40,216 nt of DNA from a virus. This document shows, piece after piece, positions 3,218 through 39,533 of the stretch (position 1 is its first letter; every line of letters begins with the position of its first letter). Position numbers and translations under genes: made by a program. The DNA lies in IMG/VR virus record IMGVR_UViG_3300013125_000017, positions 1 to 40,216 of that record. The stretch is one strand, 5' to 3'. A model generated the notes under the pieces. That model did not search any database and was not told the DNA's origin. It worked only from the letters and a program-made list of their open reading frames with translations.

Positions 3218-4099
3218 TTATAAATTATTTGTAGCATTATTAATTCCCTCTAATAATAAACCTTTACAAATAGACTTATTCTTCTTCCATTCATTACTAT
3301 TAATAGTTATAAGTTTTATGTTATTCTTCAAACATAACTTGTTTTTTATAATATCACGTTTATAATGTTCATTTAATGTATGATAATATCCATTATACTC
3401 TATTGCCATGTTTATATCTGGCATCCATATATCTAATTCTAACCAATGATTTGTATTTGGATTTATTAATTGTGTTCTATCATTTTCAATTATTGTTCCT
3501 TTATATATTGTTTTTATAAAATCTAATACTTCCTTTTCTTCTCCACTGTATAAACATTTTGGACATCTATAACCTCTTTTAAAATTATGAAATGTGGTTC
3601 TATAATGATGTTTTGATTTACATTCTATTGTTATTATTGAATTTACATTTTTATATAACATCATATCAGATATAATCTTGTATCCAAATTGTTTTATATA
3701 ATTTTGTATATATCCTTTTGTATATTTTTGTTTACCAGAGCATATATTACATCGTGTTTTATTGTTTTTAAAATTATTTATTGATATATAACATTCATGC
3801 CCTTTATTACAAATCATTTTTAATTTTTTTGAATTATTTTCATATATTTCTGATACTAAAATATACTTTTCCTTTTCTACAATTTCTTTTACATTATCAT
3901 ATGATAATTTTGGTGTGCCAAAACATACAGGACATCTATTCCCATTATAAAAAGAATTAAAATGGGCATCATATAGATGCCCATTATTACATATTATATG
4001 TAATTTTGTTTTACTGTTTGTGTATTCAGTAGAAAGTAATTTATATCCTGTAGATGATACAAATGATTTTATATATTCATATGACAATTTCGGAGGCAT
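3218..4099 (-). CDS. Free-standing homing endonuclease, zinc-ribbon array plus Vsr/EDxHD-like nuclease
   Basis: 293 residues. Three modules of about 60 residues occur in a row, each with a GY(K/I)hhS strand, C-x2-GH or C-x-x-KH, and C-x2-C: HIICNNGH...CPVC, KMICNKGH...CNIC and TIECKSKH...CPKC. The C-terminal domain (about 200-280) has the Vsr/EDxHD fold pattern: GEEKEV, LELDIWMPD, IEYNGYYH (about 231-238), a KNKLC helix and a final LITINSNEW strand. The N-terminus (MPPKL) matches the portal endonuclease (MPKKL). It is inserted between the glycosyltransferase stop (4117) and the fibre gene and leaves both intact, so it is a free-standing selfish gene. No good ribosome site is seen at the start. 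Confidence 0.85.
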   Translation of the reverse strand: MPPKLSYEYIKSFVSSTGYKLLSTEYTNSKTKLHIICNNGHLYDAHFNSFYNGNRCPVCFGTPKLSYDNVKEIVEKEKYILVSEIYENNSKKLKMICNKGHECYISINNFKNNKTRCNICSGKQKYTKGYIQNYIKQFGYKIISDMMLYKNVNSIITIECKSKHHYRTTFHNFKRGYRCPKCLYSGEEKEVLDFIKTIYKGTIIENDRTQLINPNTNHWLELDIWMPDINMAIEYNGYYHTLNEHYKRDIIKNKLCLKNNIKLITINSNEWKKNKSICKGLLLEGINNATNNL

Positions 4100-9488: not shown

Positions 9489-10298
9489 ATGAATTCAAAT
9501 TTACTTGAACAACTTATAATAAAAGCATGTCTACAAGATACAGGATTAATAGCAACCCTTTCATCTACGTTTAAAAAGGATTATTTTGATAATTTAACAG
9601 CCTCACAAATTTATAATTATATAATAACTAAATTTAAGCAATATCAAACAATTCCACCTAGAGTAGAAATCATTGCTGAAATTGATAAAGAAAATGATAA
9701 TGCTGAAGCATTTATTCGTGATGTTGACAGTATAGATTATGATATAACCAGAAATTATACAAGTTTGTTTGATAGTATTAATGATTATTTAAAAGAAAAG
9801 GCCGTAAAGAAGTCTATATTAACTTCTGTTGATGTAATAAACAATAAACCCGATGAAATATCAAGTATAAAAGGAATTATTGAAGAAGCATTATCAAAAG
9901 ATCTGAAAATAGACTTAGGTTTAGATTATTTCGGGGCATTAAAGGATCGTTTGATAAGAATAATGAGTACAGATGTTACAAGAGTACCATCATATTTTCC
10001 TAAATTTGATGAATATATATCTGGTGGGTTTCCGCCATATACACTATCCATAATGCTCGCCAGGATACATGGTTTTAAGTGTATTTATGGTGATGGTATT
10101 ATTACCATTATGGATTCAAAGAATTTTATTAAAAAAATAAAAATATCTGATTTATATAAACATTCTTGTATAGATGAATGTAAGCAACAAAATAATTTTG
10201 AACAAAAACCAAAACTACTTTTGTTTCAAAGGAAATATGGAGAAATAGAAGGAGAAAAAAGATATAATGAGTGGCAGAATATCAACAAGAAAGGGTAA
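9489..10298 (+). CDS. 41: Replicative DNA helicase gp41, N-terminal piece fused to a very short N-intein
   Basis: Residues 1-197 are the N-terminal helicase (DnaB/gp41-like) up to its Walker A loop: SGGFPPYTLSIMLARIHGFK. Directly after the P-loop lysine an intein starts at Cys198 (CIYGDGIITIMD, then IKISDLYK). This N-intein resembles the roughly 25-residue N-fragment of atypically split inteins such as AceL-TerL (C-x-Y-G-D...IKIxDLYK). The frame then runs on in a linker and one KYGEIEGEKRYNEW repeat, shared with the endonuclease at 11669-12895, before the stop. The Walker A serine is on the next piece (10510-11637), so the helicase cannot bind ATP until it is spliced. Start follows AAAAAGGAATAGAAGATA. 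Confidence 0.85.
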   Translation: MNSNLLEQLIIKACLQDTGLIATLSSTFKKDYFDNLTASQIYNYIITKFKQYQTIPPRVEIIAEIDKENDNAEAFIRDVDSIDYDITRNYTSLFDSINDYLKEKAVKKSILTSVDVINNKPDEISSIKGIIEEALSKDLKIDLGLDYFGALKDRLIRIMSTDVTRVPSYFPKFDEYISGGFPPYTLSIMLARIHGFKCIYGDGIITIMDSKNFIKKIKISDLYKHSCIDECKQQNNFEQKPKLLLFQRKYGEIEGEKRYNEWQNINKKG

Positions 10299-10509
10299 GG
10301 GATCTCTTCCTTGGTATATTAAGAAATATGGTAATATAGAAGGAACGAAAAAATACCAAGAAAAAACAAATAAATTGAAGGGCTGTCACTCCCTTCCTTG
10401 GTATATTGAGAAATATGAAGGTAATAAAAGATATCAAGAGTATTGTTCCTATAAAGAGATTATAATAATAATCCGGTTGAAACAATTCAGAAATGTTTGG
10501 AGTTCATAA
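10213..10509 (+). pseudogene. Decayed homing endonuclease repeats between the two halves of the first helicase intein
   Basis: Three copies of a repeat with consensus KYG-x-IEG-x-K-(R/K)-Y occur here in two frames: QRKYGEIEGEKRYNEW in the frame of the helicase N-piece, and WYIKKYGNIEGTKKYQE and WYIEKYEGNKRYQEY in the frame of 10267-10509. In a further frame, NPVETIQKCLEFING runs to a TAA that overlaps the ATG of the next gene (ATGGATAA). The same repeat stands near the N-terminus of the intact endonuclease at 11669-12895. No nuclease domain remains, and at least two frame changes separate the pieces, so this is a remnant of an endonuclease that once occupied this intein. Confidence 0.7.
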
Positions 10510-11637
10510 ATGGATAATATTTGTAAAGAGTATAGAAAATGTGAAGATATTTCGATATATACAAATATAGGATGGGTTCCTGTTGATTATGTATTAAAAA
10601 CAATCCCATTTGAAAAATATATTGTACTATTTGAATCTGGCAGAGAAATAGAATGTGCTGATAGACATGCTTTCATAAATGAAGAATATAAAACAATCAT
10701 AACCAAGGATTTAAAAATAGGGGATAGAATACTTTCTGATGATGGTGTTGATATTGTGTTTGATATATTCAATACTGGTGAATATGAAGAAATGTATGAT
10801 GTCAGTCTAAGAGACCATCATCTTTATTATGCAAACGGTTTATTGTCACACAATTCAGCATTTTTGGCTAATATGGCGGCAAGACAAGTTCTAAATGGAT
10901 GGAATGTTGTTCTTGCTTCATTAGAAATGTCAGAAGATGCCTTTGCACAAAGATTTGATGCTATCTTTTCAATGTATGATATAAACAAATTATATAAGGA
11001 TTCCCAAGTAAGGAAAAAACTTCCTTCGGCATTAGATAAGGTAAAGGGTACATCTGGTAGAGGAAATCTTTGGATAAAGCAGTATCCTACAGGTAAGGCA
11101 ACGGTTGAGGATTTTAGAAAATACATAAGAGAATTAACAATGAGAGGACTGAACCCTCAAATATTTATTTGTGATTATATGAATCTGATGAAGCCAGCAT
11201 ATAAAAGCAAAGGAGATATGTATAATGATGTTAAAACAATTTCAGAAGAATTAAGAGCAATGTCATTTGAATTTAAAATGCCTATAATATCTGTTAGTCA
11301 GTTGAATAGGGAGGGTATGAATATACCCTTTGAACAAGTTGATTTTACATATATATCAGAATGTTTATCTTTAGATACCTCTGTGTTGAAATGGGATGGT
11401 AAAATATACATTGCTGAAAAAATATCAAATCTAAAGAAAGATGATATAATTATGGGTAGCAAGGATAATGTTTGTGTAAAAAGACTCTTCAATAAAAAAA
11501 TTAAAAAAATGTATAAAATAAAAACGAAAAGTGGTAAGGAAATAATTTGTTCAGCAGATCATAAATTCCCAACATCAGAAGGTATAAAAAATATAAATAG
11601 TGGTCTTTGTGTTGGTGAAAAATTGAAAACTTTATAA
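10510..11637 (+). CDS. 41: Helicase gp41, middle piece, flanked by a C-intein and a second N-intein
   Basis: 375 residues in three parts. Residues 1-115 are a long C-intein: block B-like ESGREIECADRHAF, then blocks F/G HHLYYANGLLSHN ending in Asn115. Residues 116-284 are helicase extein starting with the Ser that completes Walker A (SAFLANMAARQ), then Walker B-type IFICDYMNLM and the sensor loop SVSQLNREG, ending YISE. Residues 285-375 are a second, canonical N-intein (CLSLDTSVLKWDG; block B SGKEIICSADHKFPT), very like the known gp41-1 split intein. This one polypeptide must take part in two trans-splicing reactions. It has no obvious ribosome site and starts by overlapping the stop of the decayed endonuclease frame. 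Confidence 0.88.
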   Translation: MDNICKEYRKCEDISIYTNIGWVPVDYVLKTIPFEKYIVLFESGREIECADRHAFINEEYKTIITKDLKIGDRILSDDGVDIVFDIFNTGEYEEMYDVSLRDHHLYYANGLLSHNSAFLANMAARQVLNGWNVVLASLEMSEDAFAQRFDAIFSMYDINKLYKDSQVRKKLPSALDKVKGTSGRGNLWIKQYPTGKATVEDFRKYIRELTMRGLNPQIFICDYMNLMKPAYKSKGDMYNDVKTISEELRAMSFEFKMPIISVSQLNREGMNIPFEQVDFTYISECLSLDTSVLKWDGKIYIAEKISNLKKDDIIMGSKDNVCVKRLFNKKIKKMYKIKTKSGKEIICSADHKFPTSEGIKNINSGLCVGEKLKTL

Positions 11638-11640
11638 ATA
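11633..11640 (+). promoter_or_regulatory. T4-type late promoter motif before the intein endonuclease
   Basis: TATAAATA overlaps the stop of the middle helicase piece, 29 bp upstream of the endonuclease ATG at 11669; a second copy is at 11592-11599. T4 homing endonucleases such as I-TevI are known to be delayed by late promoters, which fits. The motif is common by chance at this base composition. Confidence 0.3.
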
Positions 11641-11668
11641 GATATAAATCAGTTGTGGGGGTAAGACG

Positions 11669-12895
11669 ATGGTAAAGTTTTCAATGCTAAATAAAGAAGA
11701 TAAGTTGAATAGATTATATAATAGCCCTGTATGGATAAAAAAAATTGGTAATTTTTATATTGATAAAGAAAGGGAAACTATTATAATATCTATTATTTCC
11801 AAATGGGAGAAACTATATATTACAGATATAGTAAGTTTAGCGAGGCTTATAAGATATGCTGAAGTTGATGAAATAAAAAATAACTATAATGTGTTATCAA
11901 CAACAGATGGTATTGAAAAAAGAAAACGAAAATTAAATATGTTCATTCTTCAATATGGGAAAAAAGAAGGTAGCGCACGATATGGCCAATTTACCAATAA
12001 ACTTAATATATTGAATAGATATATTAAAAAATATGGTGAAATAGAAGGATATAAAAAATATGGTCTTTATATAAAAAAACTTTCTGTTTCACAGCAAAAA
12101 AAGGTTATTCGTGAAGGAAAAATAATTCAAAAAGAGAGATCCCTTTTATGCAAGGAGTATTGGATGAAAAGGGGATATTCTAAAGACGAATCAATTTTAT
12201 TAGCAAAAAACCATTCTAATATGTTAGTAAAAAATTCTCATAGTGTTGTTCATGTTGTACCAAGAATACATAGACTCAATACATTAGATTATTGGTTATA
12301 TAATGGATATGATTATGAAACAGCATGTGTAATGAAAAAAATACAAACTGATAAATCTATACAATCAAAAGAGGAATATAAAAAGAAATATGGTGAAAAA
12401 TGGGAAGAAAAATGGGATGTAATGCAAGAAAAGAGAAGGATAAAAACACTCAAAACTATATCAAAAAATAATGGGTTTAAATGTAATGCATCTAAACAAT
12501 CTTTATTGTATTTTTTACCTTTAAAGTGTTGGATAATGAAAAAATATAATATATCAGAAGATGATATATATATAGGGATTGATGGTTCAAAAGAATTTTT
12601 TCTTGCCAATTCAACACAATATTATTTTAGATATGATTTTACAATAAGGACAAAAAAGATTATAATAGATTATCATGGAGAGAGATTTCATCCGTCAAAA
12701 CATATAATACCTGATAAAGAATGGTATAAGTGGAAATCACCATATGGAATATCTTCTACTATACAGTATAATATAGATATTAAAAGAAAAATAGTAGCAG
12801 AAGAATTAGGGTTTAAATATTATGTAATATGGTCATATAAAGAATATGATGATGAAATAAAAAATGTAATGAAATTTATTGAGGATAATATATGA
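11669..12895 (+). CDS. Homing endonuclease of the fractured-gene (Vsr-like) family, in the second helicase intein
   Basis: 408 residues between the N-half and C-half of the second helicase intein. The N-terminal part has KYG-x-x-EG-type repeats (QYGKKEGSARYGQF, KKYGEIEGYKKYGLY) thought to act in DNA recognition. The middle has YWMKRGYSKDESILLA and DYWLYNGYDYETA repeats. The C-terminal domain is Vsr-like: YDFTIRTKKIIIDYHGERFHP (about 320-342), then a long helix with DIKRKIVAEELG and a final YYVIWSYKEY strand. This matches the free-standing endonucleases described between split intein halves in phage fractured genes. It starts after GGGGG and its stop overlaps the next ATG (ATGA), which couples it to the C-intein gene. 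Confidence 0.85.
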   Translation: MVKFSMLNKEDKLNRLYNSPVWIKKIGNFYIDKERETIIISIISKWEKLYITDIVSLARLIRYAEVDEIKNNYNVLSTTDGIEKRKRKLNMFILQYGKKEGSARYGQFTNKLNILNRYIKKYGEIEGYKKYGLYIKKLSVSQQKKVIREGKIIQKERSLLCKEYWMKRGYSKDESILLAKNHSNMLVKNSHSVVHVVPRIHRLNTLDYWLYNGYDYETACVMKKIQTDKSIQSKEEYKKKYGEKWEEKWDVMQEKRRIKTLKTISKNNGFKCNASKQSLLYFLPLKCWIMKKYNISEDDIYIGIDGSKEFFLANSTQYYFRYDFTIRTKKIIIDYHGERFHPSKHIIPDKEWYKWKSPYGISSTIQYNIDIKRKIVAEELGFKYYVIWSYKEYDDEIKNVMKFIEDNI

Positions 12896-13302
12896 TAGAG
12901 TATAATGATGAAATAGAATCTATTGAATATGTTGGTGAATTAGAATGTATGGATATTGAGGTATCAGGAGATCATTTATTCTATGCTAATGATATACTTA
13001 CAAAAAATAGTATTGGAACAATGGCGAGTGCTGATTTTGCTCTTATCTTTGGTAGTGATGAATCTCAGGCAGTATATGAATCTGAACTATTTTATAAAAT
13101 TGTAAAGAATAGATTAGGTGGTAGGGTAGGTGAAATTGATAAATTTTATACAGATATGAGAAATTTAAAGATGTATGATAGTATGGAATTAGATAAATGG
13201 CTTGATGATTCTGGAATATCAGGTGATACCAGAAAAAAGGCAGAAGTTATAGATAGAGTTGAAAATAATAGAGGTAGAAGATCAAGAAGGGAAAGAAGAT
13301 AA
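12892..13302 (+). CDS. 41: Helicase gp41, C-terminal piece preceded by a canonical C-intein
   Basis: Residues 1-39 are a C-intein (ECMDIEVSGDHLFYANDIL, ending TKN39), the same length class and nearly the same sequence as the gp41-1 C-intein. The usual penultimate His is replaced by Lys (TKN instead of THN). From Ser40 the helicase resumes: SIGTMASADFALIFGSDE through VKNRLGGRVGEIDKF, then a tail rich in Arg. Joining YISE to SIGTMASADF gives the continuous gp41 motif. The three exteins sum to 197+169+97 = 463 residues, close to T4 gp41 (475). Confidence 0.88.
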   Translation: MIEYNDEIESIEYVGELECMDIEVSGDHLFYANDILTKNSIGTMASADFALIFGSDESQAVYESELFYKIVKNRLGGRVGEIDKFYTDMRNLKMYDSMELDKWLDDSGISGDTRKKAEVIDRVENNRGRRSRRERR

Positions 13303-15009: not shown

Positions 15010-17790
15010 ATGTTTCGTAATGTCTATTATGATACAAGAAAAAGTAAAATTTGTTTGTGGGATCAAGTGCGAGGTAAAAATGTATATACCAGCATTAATT
15101 GGGTTCCATATGTATATGAATTAGCTGACGATGGTGATATAAAAACTATCGAAGGAGAAACAGCAAAAAAGATAACATTTAATACATACAATGAGTATTA
15201 TGTATATGCTAAGGAACATCCAAATTGCAAAGAAAATTTATTACGGCCAGAAATTCAGTTTCTGGCCGAATATTATCATAAAATCCCTGATGATGAAGTA
15301 GAAAATCCAAATTTAAAGGTATATTCTTTGGATATAGAAGTGTGTGCAGATAAAGCATTTCCAAAAGCTACCGAAGCCAAAGATCCTGTATCACTTATAT
15401 CTGTATATGATATGATGAATAAAACAACCATATCATTCGGTATTAAACCATATGACGGTAAGTATTTGAATGAACCTTGGTTTACATTTGTTCATTGTAA
15501 AGATGAAGAAATGTTACTAAGACAGTTCTTTGGATGGATGCATAAAAATCCATGTGATGTTATAACGGGTTGGAATTGTATTCCATTGACGAATTATATA
15601 TTCAAGTCAAATGAAATTGCACAATTATCAAGTATTATTCCGGGTGATATGCTATCCTTATCAAATGAGGTTGATATAGTATATCCGAGGTCTAAAAAGT
15701 TGGTTAGAAGGATAAAACTTGGGAATGGCAGTTCAATTGAAACATCAGGAGATCATATCATACCAATAAGATATATTAATAAGAATTCCTATACAAAACT
15801 TATAAAAAACGATAAATCTAATAATCACATATATGATGTGGATATGAAAGTTGATGATATACCATTTGAAGAACAATCCTGTTTTGTTCATGTTCCGTTT
15901 GATTTGAATGTAAATAAGTGTAATGATATTGATAATAACTTATTATATTTAGCAGGATTAATATACACCGATGGATCATTGAGAAATAAATCGTGTATAT
16001 ATGATGAATATAGAATATATGAATCAAATACAGAATTATTGAATAAAATACCATATATTACAACAAAAATATGTGGAAATAGAGATCATGGATTTTATCG
16101 AAATGTAAAACACTCTATTGTAAAACCAGTTCATAATCTCATATATGATGAACAGGGTAATAAGGCCTTAAATATATCAATGCTTAGTCGGTTATCTAAA
16201 AAACAATTTTATTATTTTCTTTCTGGCCTTCTCGATGGTGATGGGATTGCTAGTTCTACAGGAATGTCATATTGTGATTACACTAAAGACGGAATTGATA
16301 AACTATATAACTTATGCTTATGGAATGGTATATTTATAACAAGAAGTAAAAATATTATGCATTTTATAGAGTATGACTTCAATTCATTACATTTAAATCA
16401 TCCATATAGATGGAAGTCAATGAAAAAAAGTAGTTTAAATAGGAATTCATCTCAAAAAGCTTCTAAAATCAGATTCAAAAAAATTGATAATGAATATTAT
16501 ATAAGAATAACTGATATTGAAGAAACGGATAAAGAAGTAGAAATGGGTGATATAAAAACAAAGACAGGATATTTTATATCAAATGGTGTAAATGTTCACA
16601 ATTGTATGACATTTGACTTACAGTATTTGATAAACAGGATAGAACGAATTACAGGTGATGAAGGATCATATGCTCTTTTATCTCCTATAAAAAATGTAAG
16701 AACATGGAAACCAAAAGATGGTGATGATGTAAATATAGATATAGCTGGTGTTACTATACTTGATTATCTTGATATATATAAATGGTATAGTCCTAAAAAA
16801 CTTGAACGATATACTCTTGATTATGTATCTATCTTTGAACTCAAGAAAGGAAAGGTAGATTATTCTGTATATAATGATTTACGTCAACTATATCATGATG
16901 ATTGGAATTTATATGTAGAATACAATGTAATTGATTCATTACGAGTAGGACAATTAGAAGAAAAACTTGGATATATAAAATTAGTTCAAACATTATCGCT
17001 ACTTACAAAAGTACCCATGAAGTATTATCATATACAAACAGCTCTGATTGAAGGTATGTTTATTACATATTTTAGAAGAAATGGTATGTGTGCACCCACT
17101 TTTTATGGTGGCACACAAGAAAGTTATGAAGCTGCTTATGTCAAATCTCCAATTCTTGGTATGCATAATTGGGTAATAGATTTAGATATTACATCTTCGT
17201 ATCCAACAGCTATCATTACATTAAATATGTCAAATGAAACATATTATGGTAGAATACTTGGTATGACAGAGGATCAAGTAATGAGTTATTCAAGAAATAA
17301 AAATTTTCCAGAATTTCAAATGATGAAAAATATAGGAAAAATGGAATTTTCAAATAAAAGACTTGATTTATTTAATAATGCTTTAAAAAAGAAATTATTG
17401 TGTATAGCTCCATGTGGATCTGTTTTTATTACTAATCCATTGGGTGTTATTGCTACCGTGGAAAAAAATACTTTTCATAAAAGAATTGAAGTAAAGAAAA
17501 AAATGATAAAACTAAAAAAATCTTTACCTGATTTAAGAGGTAAAATGCTTGAGGATACAAAAGAAAAAATTGCCAGATATAATAGTTTACAGAATGCTTT
17601 AAAAATTATTCTAAATGCTACATATGGCGTTCTTGCTACACCATACTTTAGATATTTCAATATAAACATAGCTGAAGCCATCGTTTCTTGTGGAAGGCAG
17701 ACAATAAAAGCAGGTGAATCAATAGTAAATAATTTATTAAACAATCCTAATGATGAATTAAAGGAAATATTGAAAAATATCAAAGAATAG
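15010..17790 (+). CDS. 43: Family B DNA polymerase gp43, N-terminal and palm part, with an in-frame LAGLIDADG intein
   Basis: 926 residues as translated. Exonuclease motif I is YSLDIEV (Asp108, Glu110). Exonuclease II is split by an intein: VITGWN189 / C532 MTFDLQYL. Polymerase motif A is DLDITSSYPTA (about 724) and motif B is KIILNATYGVLATPYFRYFN (about 865). The gene then stops at TAG 17788-17790, after the helix ending LKEILKNIKE, before motif C (DTDS), which is found in the next gene. Exteins of 189+395 residues plus about 280 after the break approach the length of T4 gp43 (898). The promoter is at 14946-14974. The polymerase must be spliced, and the break before motif C must be bridged or complemented in trans. 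Confidence 0.88.
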   Translation: MFRNVYYDTRKSKICLWDQVRGKNVYTSINWVPYVYELADDGDIKTIEGETAKKITFNTYNEYYVYAKEHPNCKENLLRPEIQFLAEYYHKIPDDEVENPNLKVYSLDIEVCADKAFPKATEAKDPVSLISVYDMMNKTTISFGIKPYDGKYLNEPWFTFVHCKDEEMLLRQFFGWMHKNPCDVITGWNCIPLTNYIFKSNEIAQLSSIIPGDMLSLSNEVDIVYPRSKKLVRRIKLGNGSSIETSGDHIIPIRYINKNSYTKLIKNDKSNNHIYDVDMKVDDIPFEEQSCFVHVPFDLNVNKCNDIDNNLLYLAGLIYTDGSLRNKSCIYDEYRIYESNTELLNKIPYITTKICGNRDHGFYRNVKHSIVKPVHNLIYDEQGNKALNISMLSRLSKKQFYYFLSGLLDGDGIASSTGMSYCDYTKDGIDKLYNLCLWNGIFITRSKNIMHFIEYDFNSLHLNHPYRWKSMKKSSLNRNSSQKASKIRFKKIDNEYYIRITDIEETDKEVEMGDIKTKTGYFISNGVNVHNCMTFDLQYLINRIERITGDEGSYALLSPIKNVRTWKPKDGDDVNIDIAGVTILDYLDIYKWYSPKKLERYTLDYVSIFELKKGKVDYSVYNDLRQLYHDDWNLYVEYNVIDSLRVGQLEEKLGYIKLVQTLSLLTKVPMKYYHIQTALIEGMFITYFRRNGMCAPTFYGGTQESYEAAYVKSPILGMHNWVIDLDITSSYPTAIITLNMSNETYYGRILGMTEDQVMSYSRNKNFPEFQMMKNIGKMEFSNKRLDLFNNALKKKLLCIAPCGSVFITNPLGVIATVEKNTFHKRIEVKKKMIKLKKSLPDLRGKMLEDTKEKIARYNSLQNALKIILNATYGVLATPYFRYFNINIAEAIVSCGRQTIKAGESIVNNLLNNPNDELKEILKNIKE
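15577..16602 (+). other. Full-length intein with LAGLIDADG homing endonuclease in the exonuclease II motif
   Basis: Residues 190-531 of the polymerase, 342 residues. Block A is CIPLTNYIFKSNE; block B is NGSSIETSGDHIIP (T-x-x-H); the LAGLIDADG motifs are LAGLIYTDG (314-322) and LSGLLDGDG (404-412), both with the catalytic acid; block F/G is GYFISNGVNVHN, followed by Cys532. All splicing residues (Cys1, block B His, His-Asn, +1 Cys) are present, so both splicing and nuclease are probably active. It lies between N189 and C532 of VITGWN-CMTFD, so the exonuclease cannot function unless it is spliced. Confidence 0.9.
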
Positions 17791-17848
17791 TGTTCTATCA
17801 ATAAATGTAAGGATGGTTTCATTATATGATTACAAAAGGAGATAAAAA

Positions 17849-17877
17849 AGTAGAGAACATTGATTATGTTCTCTACT
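17849..17877 (+). other. Perfect 12-bp hairpin in the polymerase break
   Basis: AGTAGAGAACAT (17849-17860), loop TGATT, ATGTTCTCTACT (17866-17877): 12 uninterrupted base pairs. It lies 3 nt before the in-frame GAA TTT GAT ACA GAT that encodes the start of motif C, and after an SD-like AAAAGGAG (17834-17841). There is no T-run, so it is not a terminator. It contains the candidate ATG (17866) of the second polymerase gene, which folding would hide. Confidence 0.85.
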
Positions 17878-18729
17878 CCTGAATTTGATACAGATAGTTT
17901 GTTCATAAATGTTGGTTTGTTTATAGAAAAAAATATTGGTAAAGAAAAATGGCTTCAAATTACTGATGATAAGAAAATAAGTATTATAAAACAAGTAGCA
18001 AAGGTGATTGAAGAGAATGTAAATGATAAATCATATCGTGAAATACAAAGAAAAACATATAATTCCTCTGAAACAGATTTTCGTATAAAATTTAAACAGG
18101 AGATTATTGCTAAATCAGTTCTTTTTGTAAAAAAGAAAAAATATTCTTGTTGGATAATAGAAGAGGAAGGGGCTTCAGTTGATTATATTAAGACAACTGG
18201 ATTAGAAATTGTCAGATCAGATACACCTGAAATTGTAAGGCCCTTTTTAAAAGATATAATTACAATGATATTAAAAGGATCTTCTGATTACGAAATATCT
18301 GATAAAGTACAAAAGGTTAAGAAAGATTTATTAGCATCTATACCAGAAGAAATATCAACTAATATAGGGGTACATGAATTATCAAAGTATATAGGAGTAA
18401 ATAATTTATGTAAAAAGGGAACCCCAATGCATGTAAAAAGTGTTGCTAATTATCGTTCGTTATTGAATATATTGAAGTTGGAAGATAAATATGAAGATAT
18501 AGTTGATGGAACAAAGGTAAAGGTTGTATATTTAAAAAAGAATAAATTTGGATTTGAAAGTATGGCCTTTCTTAGATGGCCTACTGAATTTGACAAGGTT
18601 ATTCAAATTGATTATAATAAACAGGTAGAGAAAACTTTTACAAATAAAATAAGTATCTTATTAGAGCCAATGAATAAATTAAATATTATGAATGGAAAGA
18701 TTAAAGAAGTTATAGGTTTATTTTTTTAA
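17866..18729 (+). CDS. 43: DNA polymerase gp43, C-terminal part (motif C and thumb)
   Basis: 287 residues from the ATG at 17866 (TTG 17860 is possible). It begins with motif C, FDTDSLFINVG, holding the second catalytic Asp pair, then KSVLFVKKKKYSCWI and KTTGLEIVRSDTP, then KGTPMHVKSVANYRSLL of the thumb. It ends IKEVIGLFF, which resembles the C-terminal sliding-clamp-binding peptide of gp43. It is in the same frame as 15010-17790 but separated by three in-frame stops. A third-frame stretch at 17826-17880 reads MITKGDKKVENIDYVLYS, whose end is the expected beta-strand before DTDS. Neither start codon has a well-placed ribosome site. Possibilities are a split polymerase, a recoded or bypassed gap, or decay. 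Confidence 0.75.
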   Translation: MFSTPEFDTDSLFINVGLFIEKNIGKEKWLQITDDKKISIIKQVAKVIEENVNDKSYREIQRKTYNSSETDFRIKFKQEIIAKSVLFVKKKKYSCWIIEEEGASVDYIKTTGLEIVRSDTPEIVRPFLKDIITMILKGSSDYEISDKVQKVKKDLLASIPEEISTNIGVHELSKYIGVNNLCKKGTPMHVKSVANYRSLLNILKLEDKYEDIVDGTKVKVVYLKKNKFGFESMAFLRWPTEFDKVIQIDYNKQVEKTFTNKISILLEPMNKLNIMNGKIKEVIGLFF

Positions 18730-20357: not shown

Positions 20358-20534
20358 ATGGAGAAGAAGCCTATGGTCGTAAGAGTTACTAAAACAGAGT
20401 TTGAATTAGATGATGGAAGAATATTTCCTCACCCAGTAGAACTTGATGACGTTCCTACTATTGAGGAATTTCAGAAAATTTATGACAAAAGCCGTAAACT
20501 TGTTTCTGATATGCTGAAGGATGATAATGACTAA
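20358..20534 (+). CDS. Small phage protein, probably truncated by the IS607-type insertion
   Basis: 58 residues: VVRVTKTEFELDDGRIFPHP, then VPTIEEFQKIYDKSRKLVSD, a compact beta-then-helix protein. Its last codons (20520-20534) overlap the transposon tnpA start, so the C-terminus may come from the element. If the element is removed between GG at 20519-20520 and GG at 22697-22698, the frame continues LKERYKRNMW and stops. No family is recognised with confidence. Ribosome site GAAAGGTTAAAT. Confidence 0.6.
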   Translation: MEKKPMVVRVTKTEFELDDGRIFPHPVELDDVPTIEEFQKIYDKSRKLVSDMLKDDND

Positions 20535-21162
20535 TAATCTTATAGATATATCTGAAGCATCTCAACTTCTTGGAGTGGATAAGTCTACTTTGAGGTATTG
20601 GGATAAAACTAATAAACTGAAACCACAGAAAACCGCTGGTGGTCATAGAAGATATTTATTATCTGATATTAAGAAACTTCAAGGTATATCTGAAGACTGT
20701 ATAGATGATGGTATTAATGAAAATAATGTAGCTGTTTATTGTAGAGTTTCCTCACATGAGCAGAAACAAAAAGGTGACTTAGAACGTCAAAAAGGCAGAC
20801 TTCTTGAATATTGTATTAAGAAAAAGTATCAAGTAGAGTATATCTTCGAAGAGGTAGGTTCTGGTATGTCTGATACAAGAACTAAACTACATAGGTTGTG
20901 TGATGTAGCTGAAAAGAGAAAGATATGTAAAATTATAGTAGAACATAAAGATAGATTAACAAGATTTAACTATTTGATATATGAAAGATATTTTAAAAGT
21001 TTAGGCGTTGAAGTTATTATTGTAGAAGAGACTCTACCTAAAACTTATGAAGCTGAGTTAGTTGAAGATATTATGTCTTTAGTAGCCTCGTCTTCATCTA
21101 AAGTTTATGGAAAAAGAAGTGCGGAAAATAGAAGAAAGAAAAAAGAGATGGTTACATGTTAG
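20527..21162 (+). CDS. tnpA: IS607 transposase TnpA (serine recombinase)
   Basis: 211 residues. The N-terminal MerR-like helix-turn-helix (DISEASQLLGVDKSTLRYWD; TAGGHRRY) is followed by a serine recombinase catalytic domain: VAVYCRVSSHEQ (nucleophilic Ser near 75), KIIVEHKDRLTRF and the C-terminal SSSSKVYGKRSAENRR. Length matches IS607 TnpA. The ATG at 20527 is favoured over 20521 because AAGGA lies 5 nt upstream. The gene overlaps the next gene by 7 bp. Confidence 0.92.
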   Translation: MTNNLIDISEASQLLGVDKSTLRYWDKTNKLKPQKTAGGHRRYLLSDIKKLQGISEDCIDDGINENNVAVYCRVSSHEQKQKGDLERQKGRLLEYCIKKKYQVEYIFEEVGSGMSDTRTKLHRLCDVAEKRKICKIIVEHKDRLTRFNYLIYERYFKSLGVEVIIVEETLPKTYEAELVEDIMSLVASSSSKVYGKRSAENRRKKKEMVTC

Positions 21163-21575
21163 ATTTTGAAAACTCTCATCATTTAGAACCAGAAATAACT
21201 TGGCAAGACTGCGCTACATTTATATATGATGCTGTTTTGGATGGAAAATTAAATAGAGAAGATTTCATTAAGCTTTTTATATTATCTGGTCAAGAAATGT
21301 CTGATCCTCGACATGTAAGAATATTTGCTAAAGCATTAGGAGCTTTTTTCAAAAGAGATTATACAGATTTAAAGTCTGAAGAAAAACCCGCAGTGCTTGT
21401 AATAGTAAACAATAAAAAATATTTAGTCTCGCATAACAATGAAGAAATAACTATAAATGAAGCAAATGATTTAAAAGACTTATCAGACTATTCTTTTATT
21501 ATTACACATGAAACTGAAGCAGATGGTAAAATAGCAGCGTGGGAAAGAAAAGAAAAATACATAGAGAGAATATAG
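21156..21575 (+). CDS. Unknown protein encoded between tnpA and tnpB
   Basis: 139 residues, overlapping the end of tnpA and ending 1 bp before tnpB, so it is translated as part of the transposon operon. Acidic N-terminus, a helical segment (DFIKLFILSGQEMSDPRHVR, then IFAKALGAFFKRDY), and a beta-rich second half (PAVLVIVNNKKYLVSHNNEE). IS607 elements usually carry only tnpA and tnpB, so this is an accessory gene of unknown role. It might regulate transposition or the TnpB nuclease. Confidence 0.7.
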   Translation: MLDFENSHHLEPEITWQDCATFIYDAVLDGKLNREDFIKLFILSGQEMSDPRHVRIFAKALGAFFKRDYTDLKSEEKPAVLVIVNNKKYLVSHNNEEITINEANDLKDLSDYSFIITHETEADGKIAAWERKEKYIERI

Positions 21576-21576
21576 G

Positions 21577-22689
21577 ATGAAACTAATAAGATCAACTAAA
21601 TGTAGTCTGAAGTTTGCTACAAAACATAAAACCGCTGAATTACAATCTATCCTTGCAGAGTATGGTAAAGTTTGTAATATCTTTATAGATCACTTTTGGA
21701 AGAACGAAACTCCTTCTAAAGCTGAACTCCTTAAAGATATAGTTGATCTTCCTAAAGAGACTTGGCTATCTGCAAGGTTGAGAAAAGTTGCTGCCCGTGA
21801 ATCTATTGACATGATCAAGGCAACTAAAGAGAGATGGAAGTCTAAACCAGATAAGATGAAGATGCCTATACATAAAGGCAAACGAATGTATGTGTCTTGC
21901 ACCATAGCTGATCTCAATGAGTCAGAAGAGGCTACTGAATTTGATGCTTGGTTACATATAGCTTCGGTAGGAGATAAGCATATTTTAGATTTGCCCATTA
22001 AATTCCATAAGCATTTCAATAAGATAGCTTCTATTGGTAAAAGATTAAATAGTTATATTATTACTGATAAGTATGTTCAATTTAGTTTTGAAGTCGAAAC
22101 CTTACCTAAAAAAGAAGGTAACAAGGTTTTAGGTATAGATACTGGTATTAACGCTCTTGCGTCTCTTTCTAACAAGATACAGCTTGGTACAGATATTAAA
22201 TCTTGTATAGAGAGGATAAAGAGGTGTAAGCAAGGATCAAAAGGTCAGAAACAGGCTCGTAGAGCTTTAAAACAGAGAATAGATGAAGTTGCTCAAGAGA
22301 TTATTAAACTCGATCCTGATATGATTGTAGTAGAAAAGTTGAAGGATTTAGGTAAGAATACAAAAGTCAAACGTCTATTGACTAAAAATATTAGACGCTC
22401 TATCGGAATCTGGAATTGGAAGTATTGGTTAAAAAGGTTAGAACAAGCTTGTGAACTTAACCGTGTTAAGTTCCGCACTGTAGCTTCTTTTTATACCTCT
22501 ACAACCTGTTCAGAGTGTGGTTATTCTGATAGGATGAATCGTAATGGTGAGCTATTTAAGTGTCTAAAATGTAACCACGAGATGAATGCGGATATAAATG
22601 CCGCCTTGAATATACTCAAACGATTCATTACAGGAGTCTACGGTTCCTGTTGCAAACCTGAAGAAGTAATGAACTTTAATTTTTCATAA
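21577..22689 (+). CDS. tnpB: TnpB, RNA-guided nuclease of the IS200/IS605/IS607 group
   Basis: 370 residues, the usual compact TnpB length. RuvC-like catalytic residues are present: Asp188 in LGIDTGINAL, Glu near 253 in IVVEKLKDLG, and Asp near 339 in MNADINAALNI. The zinc finger CSECG...CLKC lies at about 311-330. The N-terminal KLIRSTKCSLKFATKH is the usual OB-fold start. TnpB is guided by an omega-RNA encoded at the 3' end of its gene and cuts DNA to preserve the element. All catalytic and zinc residues are intact, so activity is likely. Confidence 0.92.
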   Translation: MKLIRSTKCSLKFATKHKTAELQSILAEYGKVCNIFIDHFWKNETPSKAELLKDIVDLPKETWLSARLRKVAARESIDMIKATKERWKSKPDKMKMPIHKGKRMYVSCTIADLNESEEATEFDAWLHIASVGDKHILDLPIKFHKHFNKIASIGKRLNSYIITDKYVQFSFEVETLPKKEGNKVLGIDTGINALASLSNKIQLGTDIKSCIERIKRCKQGSKGQKQARRALKQRIDEVAQEIIKLDPDMIVVEKLKDLGKNTKVKRLLTKNIRRSIGIWNWKYWLKRLEQACELNRVKFRTVASFYTSTTCSECGYSDRMNRNGELFKCLKCNHEMNADINAALNILKRFITGVYGSCCKPEEVMNFNFS

Positions 22690-27749: not shown

Positions 27750-28876
27750 TTGACATTAATTCATCTCCAATTCCTTATCAGATAAAAATATTTCTATTCT
27801 ATTCTTTGTATTGTAACTACTTTTATTCCAGTCTTTATCAGATATTGTTAATAATTGGATATTATCTAATTCACATTGTTTTTTCTTTATTACATCATTT
27901 ATTTTCTTTTCAGATCTACTATGCCAATACTCTCCATTGATTTCTATTGCTTTTTTAAGATGAGGAAAATATAAATCAAGTTCAAGAAAATGATTTGTAT
28001 TTGGGTTAATAATAGTTCTCCTATCATTCATTATGTATGTTATGTTTAATGTATTTATAAATTTTCTTATTTCAATTTCTTCTTTTGATACACTACATTT
28101 TCCACATCTCTGACCGTCTCTCCAATGTCTAACTGAAATAGAATGTCTATGTTTGGCAGGACAAATAAATTCTATTTTTGTTGTATTTTGAGTTTTATAT
28201 TCATCTTCCTTTGTTATTACATTATATCCTTCATCTTCAAAAGACTTCTTTATATCAGAAAACTCTATTTGAGCTTGATTTTGACAATATGGACATCTAA
28301 TCCCTCTCTTGAATGCTGTATATGTAATATAGTGACTATGGCCGTTAGGACATTTGTAGTTCAATTTTGTTCTATAACCAGAAATTTTATATTCAGGTAT
28401 AAATACTGTGTATCCATTAGAATTAAATAATTTTAATATTTGCTCATTTGAAATAGGGGAATTTTTTCTACATTTTCCACATCTTTGCCCAGAAATCCAA
28501 TTACCCACACTTATTCTATGATAATGTCCATTAGGGCATGTAAAATATAAAAATTGATACCTATTAATATATTCTTTCGTATGTAAAACATATCCTTCAT
28601 CTTCAAATGATTTACTCAATAAATCGAAATCTAATTTGTTTTTCTGATTTATTATAGGATTTGAACATTTATTTGAACAATATAATAATTTTCCATCAAG
28701 ACGAATAAATTCTTTATTGCATCCCTTACAAATAAAGTAATTATAATGTCGTTTTGGTTTCAAATAATATTCTTCTCTTTCTTTATAAATGTTAAATCTT
28801 TTAATATTTTCTTCTGTAAGTTCTATGGTTTTTGGGTACATTGACATTAATCCATCTCCAATTCCTTATTAGATAA
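27750..28876 (-). repeat. 36-bp direct repeat flanking the endonuclease gene (27750-27785 and 28841-28876)
   Basis: The two 36-bp copies differ at two positions. On the minus strand the right copy is the 3' end of the DHH gene with its stop and the overlapping start (SNKELEMD, TAATG). The left copy is the 3' end of the endonuclease itself (SDKELEMN, TAATG). The endonuclease therefore sits between the original and a duplicated copy of the host gene's end. Confidence 0.9.
27756..28847 (-). CDS. Homing endonuclease with zinc-ribbon array and Vsr/EDxHD-like nuclease
   Basis: 363 residues. An N-terminal zinc finger (CKGC...CSNKC) precedes three modules with C-P-N-G-H or C-P-A-K-H and C-G-K-C/C-P-Y-C, each containing GY-x-h...EY. 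The nuclease domain has KEEIEIRKFI, LELDLYFPH, IEINGEYWH (about 295-303), a KKKQC helix and LLTISDKDW. It is a paralogue of the proteins at 3218-4099 and 1-306. The start is the second base onward of TAATG at the DHH stop, with GGAG just upstream inside the DHH coding sequence, so translation is coupled. The last nine residues copy the C-terminus of the DHH protein. Confidence 0.88.
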   Translation of the reverse strand: MSMYPKTIELTEENIKRFNIYKEREEYYLKPKRHYNYFICKGCNKEFIRLDGKLLYCSNKCSNPIINQKNKLDFDLLSKSFEDEGYVLHTKEYINRYQFLYFTCPNGHYHRISVGNWISGQRCGKCRKNSPISNEQILKLFNSNGYTVFIPEYKISGYRTKLNYKCPNGHSHYITYTAFKRGIRCPYCQNQAQIEFSDIKKSFEDEGYNVITKEDEYKTQNTTKIEFICPAKHRHSISVRHWRDGQRCGKCSVSKEEIEIRKFINTLNITYIMNDRRTIINPNTNHFLELDLYFPHLKKAIEINGEYWHSRSEKKINDVIKKKQCELDNIQLLTISDKDWNKSSYNTKNRIEIFLSDKELEMN

Positions 28877-37391: not shown

Positions 37392-39533
37392 ATGAGAAAA
37401 AACTTTATAGGTAGAACCAGAGACACATACGGAAATGCTTCTCCTAATATTGATGTAATTATATATGAAGCAGGAACGACAACACCCGCCAAAATATATA
37501 TAAATATTGATGATGTTATTCCTGTAATAACACCACCACAAGTCACGTCAGATTCGGATGGTTTATTCAATTTTTTCATTGATACAGATGATTATAATGG
37601 AGTATTATTTGATATTGTTGTATCTGATATAACATATGACCATATTGATATACTAAGAACAGGAACATCTGGAACATCTGGTAGCTCTGGAACATCTGGA
37701 TCAAGTGGTACAAGTGGTTGGGGAACATCTGGAACATCTGGTATTTCCGGTAGCTCTGGAACAAGTGGTTTAAATGGAACATCTGGTAGCTCTGGAAGCT
37801 CTGGAAGCTCAGGTACAAGTGGTACTTCAGGCACAAGAGGCACAAGTGGATCAAGTGGTACAAGTGGATCAGGTAGTTCTGGTACATCCGGTACAAGAGG
37901 AACATCTGGTAGCTCTGGAACAAGTGGTTTAAATGGAACATCTGGTAGCTCTGGTACTTCAGGCACGTCTGGTAGCTCTGGCAGTTCAGGCAGTTCAGGC
38001 AGCTCAGGCACGTCTGGTAGCTCAGGTAGTTCAGGCAGCTCAGGCAGTTCTGGTAGCTCAGGTACGTCTGGTAGCTCAGGTTCGTCAGGCACAAGAGGCA
38101 CATCCGGAAGCTCTGGAACATCTGGTAGCTCTGGTACGTCTGGTAGTTCAGGTACATCTGGTAGCTCTGGTACTTCAGGCACAAGAGGCACAAGTGGTTC
38201 ATCTGGTTCATCGGGCAGCTCTGGTACATCTGGTAACTCAGGTAGCTCTGGTTCGTCCGGTATTTCAGGTAGTTCTGGTACTTCAGGTAGCTCAGGCACA
38301 AGAGGTACATCCGGATCAAGTGGTACAAGTGGATGGGGAACATCTGGTAGCTCAGGCAGCTCTGGTATTTCAGGCACAAGTGGTATATCAGGAACGTCTG
38401 GTAGCTCTGGAACATCTGGATCAAGTGGAAGTTCAGGTAGTTCAGGTAGTTCAGGTAGTTCAGGTACAAGAGGAACATCTGGTAGTTCAGGTAGTTCAGG
38501 TACATCATTTTTTGGTGTAACATCAGGCAGTTCTGGTAGCTCTGGTAGCTCAGGCACATCTGGTACTTCAGGTAGCTCAGGCACAAGAGGGACATCCGGA
38601 TCAAGTGGTACAAGTGGATGGGGTACATCCGGTAGCTCAGGCAGCTCTGGTATTTCAGGCACAAGTGGTACATCAGGTATTGATGGATCATCAGGCACAT
38701 CAGGTACTTCTTTCTATGGTGTTACAAGTGGAAGTTCTGGAAGTTCTGGTATAAATGGTTCATCTGGAACATCAGGTAGTTCAGGTATTGATGGATCATC
38801 AGGCACATCAGGCAATGATGGAATATCAGGTAGCTCTGGTACATCAGGAATTGATGGAATATCAGGCACTAATGGCACATCAGGTACTTCTTTCTATGGT
38901 GTTACAAGTGGAAGTTCTGGTATAAATGGTACATCTGGAACATCAGGCACATCCGGTAGCTCAGGAACAAGAGGCACATCCGGATCAAGTGGCACAAGTG
39001 GATGGGGAACATCCGGTAGCTCAGGCTCATCCGGTATTTCTGGTTCATCGGGTACATCTGGTATAAGTATAAATGGAAGTTCAGGTACATCTGGAACATC
39101 ATTTTTTGGTATAACATCTGGCACATCTGGTATAACAGGAACATCTGGTACAAGTGGTGTAACTGGTAATGTATTTCAATACATTGCTGATAATACAGTA
39201 GATGAAGAAATTACTGTAAGAGCAACAAATACAGGAATCACAGCATCAAGATCCTCAAATATAATTTCTTTTACAATTCCTAATGATGTAACAATGTTAG
39301 CAGCCACTATAAGAATAAAAGGATCAAATGTCATAAGTGGCCAGGTAATTATTGATACTGGATTTAATGCTACCGGTTGGTATAATAGATTTGCTCCTAA
39401 TTTTCAAGTTTATAGAGAAGATACCGGTAATATGATAGCAGTAAGTGCTAATCAAAATACAACAGATTTTGATAGATTCACGATTTCTGGATGTAATACA
39501 TCGGCATCAAACTATATAAAACTAGTATTTTAA
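37392..39533 (+). CDS. Long tail fibre with collagen-like Gly-Ser/Thr-Ser repeat shaft
   Basis: 713 residues. Residues 1-90 form a carboxypeptidase-like or adaptor domain (IGRTRDTYGNASPNIDVIIY; SDSDGLFNFFIDTDD). Residues about 91-592 are a collagen-like shaft with Gly at every third position, mostly G-T-S and G-S-S, broken by G-T-R, G-W-G-T-S-G, G-L-N and four F-(F/Y)-G-(V/I)-T-S interruptions. Residues about 592-713 are a globular beta tip (ITVRATNTGITASRSSNIIS; FDRFTISGCNTSASNYIKLV) that likely trimerises or binds the receptor. Proline is almost absent, so stability must come from other contacts or glycosylation. The ribosome site is weak (AGAGGACTTCAAATA). Confidence 0.85.
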   Translation: MRKNFIGRTRDTYGNASPNIDVIIYEAGTTTPAKIYINIDDVIPVITPPQVTSDSDGLFNFFIDTDDYNGVLFDIVVSDITYDHIDILRTGTSGTSGSSGTSGSSGTSGWGTSGTSGISGSSGTSGLNGTSGSSGSSGSSGTSGTSGTRGTSGSSGTSGSGSSGTSGTRGTSGSSGTSGLNGTSGSSGTSGTSGSSGSSGSSGSSGTSGSSGSSGSSGSSGSSGTSGSSGSSGTRGTSGSSGTSGSSGTSGSSGTSGSSGTSGTRGTSGSSGSSGSSGTSGNSGSSGSSGISGSSGTSGSSGTRGTSGSSGTSGWGTSGSSGSSGISGTSGISGTSGSSGTSGSSGSSGSSGSSGSSGTRGTSGSSGSSGTSFFGVTSGSSGSSGSSGTSGTSGSSGTRGTSGSSGTSGWGTSGSSGSSGISGTSGTSGIDGSSGTSGTSFYGVTSGSSGSSGINGSSGTSGSSGIDGSSGTSGNDGISGSSGTSGIDGISGTNGTSGTSFYGVTSGSSGINGTSGTSGTSGSSGTRGTSGSSGTSGWGTSGSSGSSGISGSSGTSGISINGSSGTSGTSFFGITSGTSGITGTSGTSGVTGNVFQYIADNTVDEEITVRATNTGITASRSSNIISFTIPNDVTMLAATIRIKGSNVISGQVIIDTGFNATGWYNRFAPNFQVYREDTGNMIAVSANQNTTDFDRFTISGCNTSASNYIKLVF
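37662..39166 (+). repeat. Degenerate 9-bp/18-bp repeat tract encoding the collagen-like shaft
   Basis: About 500 codons of Gly-x-Ser triplets with synonymous variation (ggtagctctgg, ggaacatctgg, ggcacaagtgg). Higher-order cassettes recur: the F-(F/Y)-G-(V/I)-T-S interruption lies at about 38504, 38706, 38886 and 39098, spaced roughly 180-212 bp. The purine/pyrimidine pattern leaves long open frames on the other strand that are not genes. Confidence 0.95.

Follow-up and report, generated by a model that had tools for sequence, protein, structure and literature searches.

How can a virus make a complete DNA polymerase when the gene for it is broken just before catalytic motif C? This question is raised by the family B (gp43-like) DNA polymerase gene of IMGVR_UViG_3300013125_000017, a 40,216-base IMG/VR virus fragment (29% GC) that is called the window here. 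Its polymerase copy is labelled L001 in the comparison of DTD[SG] sites described below. The frame of the open reading frame (ORF) at 15010-17790 closes with GAA TAG (17785-17790). The same frame reopens past two more in-frame stops and gives an ORF that runs to 18729. From ATG 17826 onward, a third frame encodes MITKGDKKVENIDYVLYS and is closed by TGA 17880-17882. A sequence-only reading of this DNA had pointed out the closing and resuming frame, a Shine-Dalgarno (SD)-like sequence and a 12-bp hairpin between the frames, and a third frame that encodes the strand expected before DTDS. All of these are confirmed. The break itself is real: two other IMG/VR contigs, 3300013123_000392 and 3300013131_000203, have an identical junction and differ from the window elsewhere in their sequence, which excludes an error of a single assembly. 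As argued in the following, the gene is split into 43A and 43B, and 43B is probably completed by programmed translational bypassing of 7-10 nucleotides (nt), which would restore the sequence YxDTDS.

The changes can be located by comparison with L095, a 64-kb syntenic contig in which the gene is unbroken and the junction reads ...NNMERDITKKPSEDVDLILYMDTDSLFINVG. The window exceeds L095 at two places, by about 35-41 nt (net +35) following GAA 17787 and by exactly 7 nt (TGAATTT) ahead of GAT 17887. The third-frame DYVLYS aligns with DITKKPSEDVDLILYM of L095 and with FVLYG-DTDS of RB69 gp43, and the L095 junction implies that DYVLYS is the true strand before DTDS. A first viral scan with the window 43B alone as the query recovered only near-identical copies and one 30% relative, and the other relatives were recovered only with profile and 43A queries. 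Megablast of the region against a phage collection gave no match, and no relative closer than ~35% was found among isolated phages. The only matches in a search of bacterial genomes were two fused relatives, both in one archaeal metagenome-assembled genome.

The first of the two breaks separates two genes. 43A is 70% identical to the unbroken L095 gene and ends with ...KEILKNIKE-TAG. The intercistronic stretch that follows is missing from L095, and SDs equivalent to the TAAGGA found in it precede 43B in the other five lineages that share the second break. In L107 and L108, 43A ends with ...NKIQKEVGEL and is followed by three small genes, then by 43B with its own SD and ATG. In L112, 43A and 43B are separated by a 312-amino-acid (aa) ORF with zinc-ribbon domains; its weak restriction-endonuclease match is below the Pfam cut-off, and it is of the homing-endonuclease type at best. 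In about a dozen other lineages, 43B begins a few codons before the strand and continues in frame into DTDS (e.g., MENIENIDYVLYGDTDS, MSEDLVIYGDTDS, and MNKDFIIYGDTDS). From the whole genes between the halves in L107 and L112, together with these in-frame starts, we conclude that 43A and 43B are distinct genes that start independently and jointly cover PolB. As read from these sequences, the position of the split in these uncultured phages is just before motif C.

Two ORFs on the minus strand of the window, 3218-4099 and 27756-28847, are of the same zinc-ribbon and restriction-endonuclease-like type as the L112 ORF and are perhaps free-standing homing endonucleases. Another polymerase broken before motif C is found in L012 (LR756508.1 258000-268000), a 484-kb uncultured phage, where the break extends over ~3 kb and includes other ORFs. 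The second part of this polymerase has a Hint/LAGLIDADG-like intein directly before TDSVFYP, and block A of the intein may sit in the first part, which would make it an unusually split intein.

The second break lies within 43B. It is found in six lineages: the window, the L107 group (L106, L107, and L108), L112, L142, L143, and L162. In all six, 43B opens with an ATG-led leader of 18-26 aa, and a gap beginning with TGA comes straight after the codons for [VI]-x-Y-[IS]. The junctions read TAC-TCC, gap TGAATTT (7 nt), GAT in the window; TAC-ATT, gap TGACGATT (8 nt), GAC in L107 as well as L106 and L108; TAC-ATT, gap TGAAGATA (8 nt), GAT in L112; TAT-ATT, gap TGAGTGGCTT (10 nt), GAT in L142; TAC-ATT, gap TGACGGAGTT (10 nt), GAC in L143; and TAC-ATA, gap TGAAATA (7 nt), GAC in L162. 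None of the lengths is a multiple of three. When the gap is excised, exactly YxDTDS is obtained in every lineage, and x is Ile in five of them, the commonest residue at this position in fused relatives (YIDTDS). That dropping 7 nt gives YSDTDS had been mentioned as a minor option in the sequence-only reading; it proves to be the option of interest, with equivalent gaps of 7, 8, or 10 nt across the six lineages. The codons at which the ribosome would take off and land are identical in L107 (AUU..AUU) and L162 (AUA..AUA) and nearly match in L112, L143, and L142. While UGA opens the gap in six of six, TGA terminates only 4 of the 38 window genes. The fetched loci contain 167 distinct DTD[SG] sites, of which only these six are preceded by both a break and a long stem near the motif.

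The stem is the second shared property. Apart from the window hairpin described above, a scan of the 40 kb found no perfect 12-bp hairpin whose loop is normal; the others are AT-rich palindromes or imperfect. In the six lineages the stems have 12-17 bp, their 3' arms end 8-10 nt before DTDS, and their folding z-scores are -3.6 to -7.1. A stem is present at this place in 6/6 broken loci and in 0/30 in-frame relatives tested. With randomly assigned labels such a perfect association is expected in about 1 in 1.9 million arrangements; however, the sequences are related. In the aligned arms, which were set in register by eye before alignment (a step that favours pairing), 93% of cells are paired and 8 of 15 pairs show double changes. 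None of 500 shuffles reached the covariation score, and sliding the partner abolishes the signal. Among 1000 synonymous recodings of the leader in each lineage, none folds as stably, implying that the hairpin is under selection beyond the encoded peptide. No known RNA family was found in an Rfam search of the window. The SD-like element is also present in all six: for the 18 nt before the stem, the duplex with the anti-SD has -6.4 to -10.6 kcal/mol, and a level of -6 or lower is seen in 9% of control windows from the same genes. Its structure and covariation mark the stem-loop beside the take-off codon as a putative functional element.

Bypassing would connect these properties as follows. Translation of 43B would be initiated independently at ATG 17826, and the ribosome would read MITKGDKKVENIDYVLYS and pause when UCC occupies the P site and UGA the A site. 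At this point the peptidyl-tRNA would detach while the mRNA moves forward by 7 nt (UGAAUUU; 7-10 nt across the lineages). After re-pairing on the triplet before GAU, decoding would restart and produce ...DYVLYS-DTDSLFINVG..., which is the normal polymerase catalytic hairpin. The predicted tryptic peptide across this junction is VENIDYVLYSDTDSLFINVGLFIEK. The hairpin, located 5' of the take-off codon, may close again behind the ribosome and so drive it forward. The SD-like AAAAGGAG would come near the landing site once the hairpin closes, and may hold or position the ribosome there. In the lineages other than L107 and L162, the triplet before GAY has a middle U and would pair at least partly with the take-off tRNA. 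The completed 43B would be expected to assemble with 43A. Bypassing is favoured because it is the single reading that fits all six lineages. For each of the proposed roles, T4 gene 60 offers a precedent (PMC5009743, PMC3014915, PMC11194080).

Several points weigh against it. The take-off UCC and the landing UUU of the window are mismatched, the weakest match of the six, and UUU would form only a U-A and two G.U-type pairs with tRNA-Ser GGA. Both the length of the gap and the landing frame differ among lineages. The leaders of the six lineages (18-26 aa) have no recognisable KKYK-like nascent-peptide signal, which gene 60 of phage T4 needs. Finally, the hairpin is 5' of the take-off codon, and there is no A-site stem-loop as in gene 60.

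The sequence-only reading had also offered a +1 shift at UCC-UGA. Such a programmed frameshift, similar to that of antizyme, would produce YS-EF-DTDS with two extra residues (junction VENIDYVLYSEFDTDS..., predicted tryptic peptide VENIDYVLYSEFDTDSLFINVGLFIEK). UCC_UGA is the usual antizyme +1 site (PMC5009743), A-site UGA and SD-like sequences are both known +1 stimulators, and a net +1 frame is needed in the window, L162, L142, and L143. The proposal suits the window, but it fails for the 8-nt gaps of L107 and L112, which require +2 or -1, so that the frame change is not conserved. UCC is present only in the window, and the SD spacing is far from the prfB arrangement. Moreover, two or three unrelated residues (EF, EI, TI, KI, EWL, and DGV) would be inserted at the catalytic turn, where a hop instead yields YxDTDS in 6/6. 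We consider a +1 shift unlikely.

It is likewise improbable that the leader is a short regulatory ORF and that 43B proper begins by coupled restart near the hairpin. The start codon would be ATG 17866 or TTG 17860 in the window (product MFSTPEFDTDS..., predicted tryptic peptide MFSTPEFDTDSLFINVGLFIEK) and a TTG overlapping the TGA in L107 and L112. With restart the differing frames become irrelevant, and in L107 and L112 the succession of SD, 6-7 nt, hairpin, and TTG is reminiscent of T4 genes 25 and 38, whose ribosome-binding sites are split by a looped-out hairpin (PMC3014915). However, the TTG is an unavoidable by-product of ATT followed by TGA, and the window, L142, L143, and L162 have no start codon in the DTDS frame after the hairpin; those available are at unrelated positions inside the stem. 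The leader-frame strand D[YFS][VI]xY[IS], which is conserved, would be lost, and the protein would be truncated inside the catalytic turn.

Three other candidates were rejected. A changed meaning of UGA would leave the frames unjoined, and TGA terminates other genes. A -1 shift at the A6 slippery run (A AAA AAG, 17844-17850) would work in the frame of 43A, which is closed by stops there. A deleted intein or intron was considered in view of the motif C intein of L012; no splicing-domain sequence remains at the window junction, and such a deletion would not account for six covarying hairpins.

Two indels plus stops within an essential gene could also indicate a dead gene or an assembly error. 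The latter we count as already refuted, as the window and L107 alleles are each seen in three contigs and the arrangement recurs in six lineages. The former is hard to reconcile with a full-length 43B under purifying selection (nonsynonymous divergence, dN, 0.31-0.37; synonymous divergence, dS, at least 1.4) and a hairpin that is itself selected; taken together, this explanation is very improbable. The headline idea of the sequence-only reading, a gene 60-like bypass of the full 93 nt from GAA 17785 to GAA 17881, was built on identical GAA codons, a TAG after the first, and a hairpin 3 nt before the second, and is now scarcely credible. The relatives all retain the catalytic-site strand DYVLYS, which this bypass would delete; other lineages do not conserve the second GAA; and 43B of the relatives has its own SD and ATG. 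In L107 and L112, the whole genes between the halves exclude a bypass of the full 43A-43B interval.

Table 1. Positions of the parts of the split polymerase locus in the window
Feature	Position	Strand	Evidence or comparison
Gene 43A with exonuclease, motif A and motif B, encoding the N-terminal portion of the gp43-like family B DNA polymerase	15010..17790	+	PF03104, PF00136
Intein in 43A at the ExoII motif (GWN^C...HN^CMTFDLQYL)	15577..16602	+	same insertion site in L095 and L107
Intercistronic stretch with 43A stop TAG (17788) and 43B SD TAAGGA (17808-17813)	17788..17825	+	L095 comparison (net ~+35 nt in the window)
First 18 codons of 43B, MITKGDKKVENIDYVLYS; TCC 17877-17879 is the proposed take-off codon	17826..17879	+	homologous to DITKKPSEDVDLILYM in L095
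Internal SD-like AAAAGGAG, 7 nt 5' of the hairpin	17834..17841	+	anti-SD duplex -8.7 kcal/mol
Perfect 12-bp hairpin AGTAGAGAACAT/TGATT/ATGTTCTCTACT (arms 17849-17860 and 17866-17877, 5-nt loop), ending at the take-off codon	17849..17877	+	covariation, synonymous recodings
Proposed bypassed gap UGAAUUU; UUU 17884-17886 is the proposed landing triplet	17880..17886	+	7-nt excess over L095
Remainder of 43B from catalytic DTDS (motif C, DTDSLFINVG), 280 aa; frame differs from 17826-17879	17887..18729	+	purifying selection

Intein-like sequences are seen elsewhere in the window. At 9489-13302 a replicative helicase exists in pieces with intein-like segments between them, the first (its N part ends at 10298) missing from the syntenic relative and the second shared with it. 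A 408-aa endonuclease-like ORF (11669-12895) lies between the halves of the second segment. This layout resembles published 'fractured genes' with split inteins. On the minus strand, a portal-like gene (299-1615) continues into the N-terminal part of an intein (CIKHDTEIPLL...) and terminates with DLVEYA* close to the end of the contig; this may be a further split intein. Other features include a MerR-like/serine recombinase gene adjoining a TnpB-like gene (20521-22689), which is an IS607-type element, and a 713-aa protein with long GTSGSSGTSG repeats (37392-39533), probably a virion fibre.

How did the six lineages come to share the second break? On a tree of 43A plus 43B from 20 loci, the broken state of 43B needs five changes, and a single clade is rejected (approximately unbiased test, p 7e-48). 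It is likewise scattered on a 48-row tree of 43B. Therefore, the element has been repeatedly lost, gained, or transferred; it is patchy and possibly mobile. We tentatively raise the idea, which we consider somewhat less likely than not, of a mobile family in which a UGA-led insert of 7-10 nt and its zippering hairpin move among phage lineages at the polymerase catalytic motif. By analogy, such a family may spread together with the homing endonucleases by which the gene is split at this site, or guard against them. In T4, the second half of the gene that became gene 60 was split off by the homing endonuclease gene mobA, and the bypassed insert may protect against cleavage (PMC5009743). A patchy distribution at a site where gene splitting also occurs, and where inteins are inserted in other phages, would support such a protective role. 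If bypassing is confirmed, these loci would form a naturally occurring family for ribosome hopping, a process known until now chiefly from a single T4 gene. To our knowledge, studies of programmed bypassing have dealt essentially with T4 gene 60, which lacks natural relatives for comparison; further cases are rare or come from mitochondria. With six diverged versions that share a covarying hairpin and fixed spacing and vary in gap length, evolution and simple reporters would expose the rules of hopping: what triggers take-off, what force drives the mRNA forward, and how strict landing is. A further consequence would be that, unless they recode, these phages cannot form the polymerase catalytic site, and that gene-finding programs cut genes of this kind short or assign them a wrong start.

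Known systems share parts of this arrangement. Some Aeromonas phages also carry gp43 as separate 43A and 43B (PMC2988022), an option that the sequence-only reading had listed. In phages 25 and 44RR, as here, two polypeptides are encoded for one T4-type PolB, and an endonuclease gene or a short intercistronic sequence separates their coding regions. The separate genes (L107/L108 and L112) are a shared property, but the split point differs: the N-terminal piece of 44RR has ~498 aa, split well upstream of motif C, and no out-of-frame second gene is reported there. The hairpin-spaced ribosome-binding sites of T4 genes 25 and 38 have a similar SD, short spacer, and hairpin, whereas in four of the six lineages here the hairpin is followed by no start codon in the required frame. 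Unlike in prfB and antizyme +1 frameshifting, the frame change varies here (7 and 10 nt, +1; 8 nt, +2 or -1). The byps of Magnusiomyces capitatus mitochondria are also short inserts skipped by ribosomes, with imperfect take-off and landing matches and a patchy distribution. They occur many times per genome; here a phage gene, bacterial-type ribosomes, and a conserved structure are concerned, and there is one site per genome as far as seen (in a comparison with the syntenic relative, no conserved gene of the window was seen to be broken apart from this one and the intein-bearing helicase). Synthetic 'stop-hops' of E. coli, with matched codons flanking a stop, are short hops like those proposed for L107 (AUU..AUU) and L162 (AUA..AUA). 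The present loci are instead natural and conserved, with hairpin and SD-like elements, and in other lineages the landing is partly matched.

The fullest comparison is with T4 gene 60, whose parts are a stop after the take-off codon, a 5' stem-loop thought to zip behind the ribosome, and an SD-like GAG before landing (PMC5009743, PMC3014915, PMC11194080). In both, a non-coding gap opens with a stop directly after the take-off codon (6/6 here), a stem-loop is at or 5' of take-off, and an SD-like sequence is present, its landing role here being a proposed one. Both are in phages, early in the gene that encodes the C-terminal part of a split replication protein (genes 39 and 60 were split by mobA), and an endonuclease-like ORF between the halves is found here in one relative (L112). 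The match of take-off and landing codons ranges from identical (L107 and L162) through near (L112, L143, and L142) to poor (UCC/UUU in the window). The gap is 7-10 nt here and 50 nt in gene 60, and the stop here is always UGA. The stem is in the upstream coding sequence and extends as far as the take-off codon, and the gap itself contains no take-off stem-loop. Take-off would occur after 18-26 codons and without a KKYK-type peptide, which in gene 60 is about 25-30 aa from the P site. Finally, the gene concerned here encodes a DNA polymerase, and the arrangement is found, with covariation, in six lineages.

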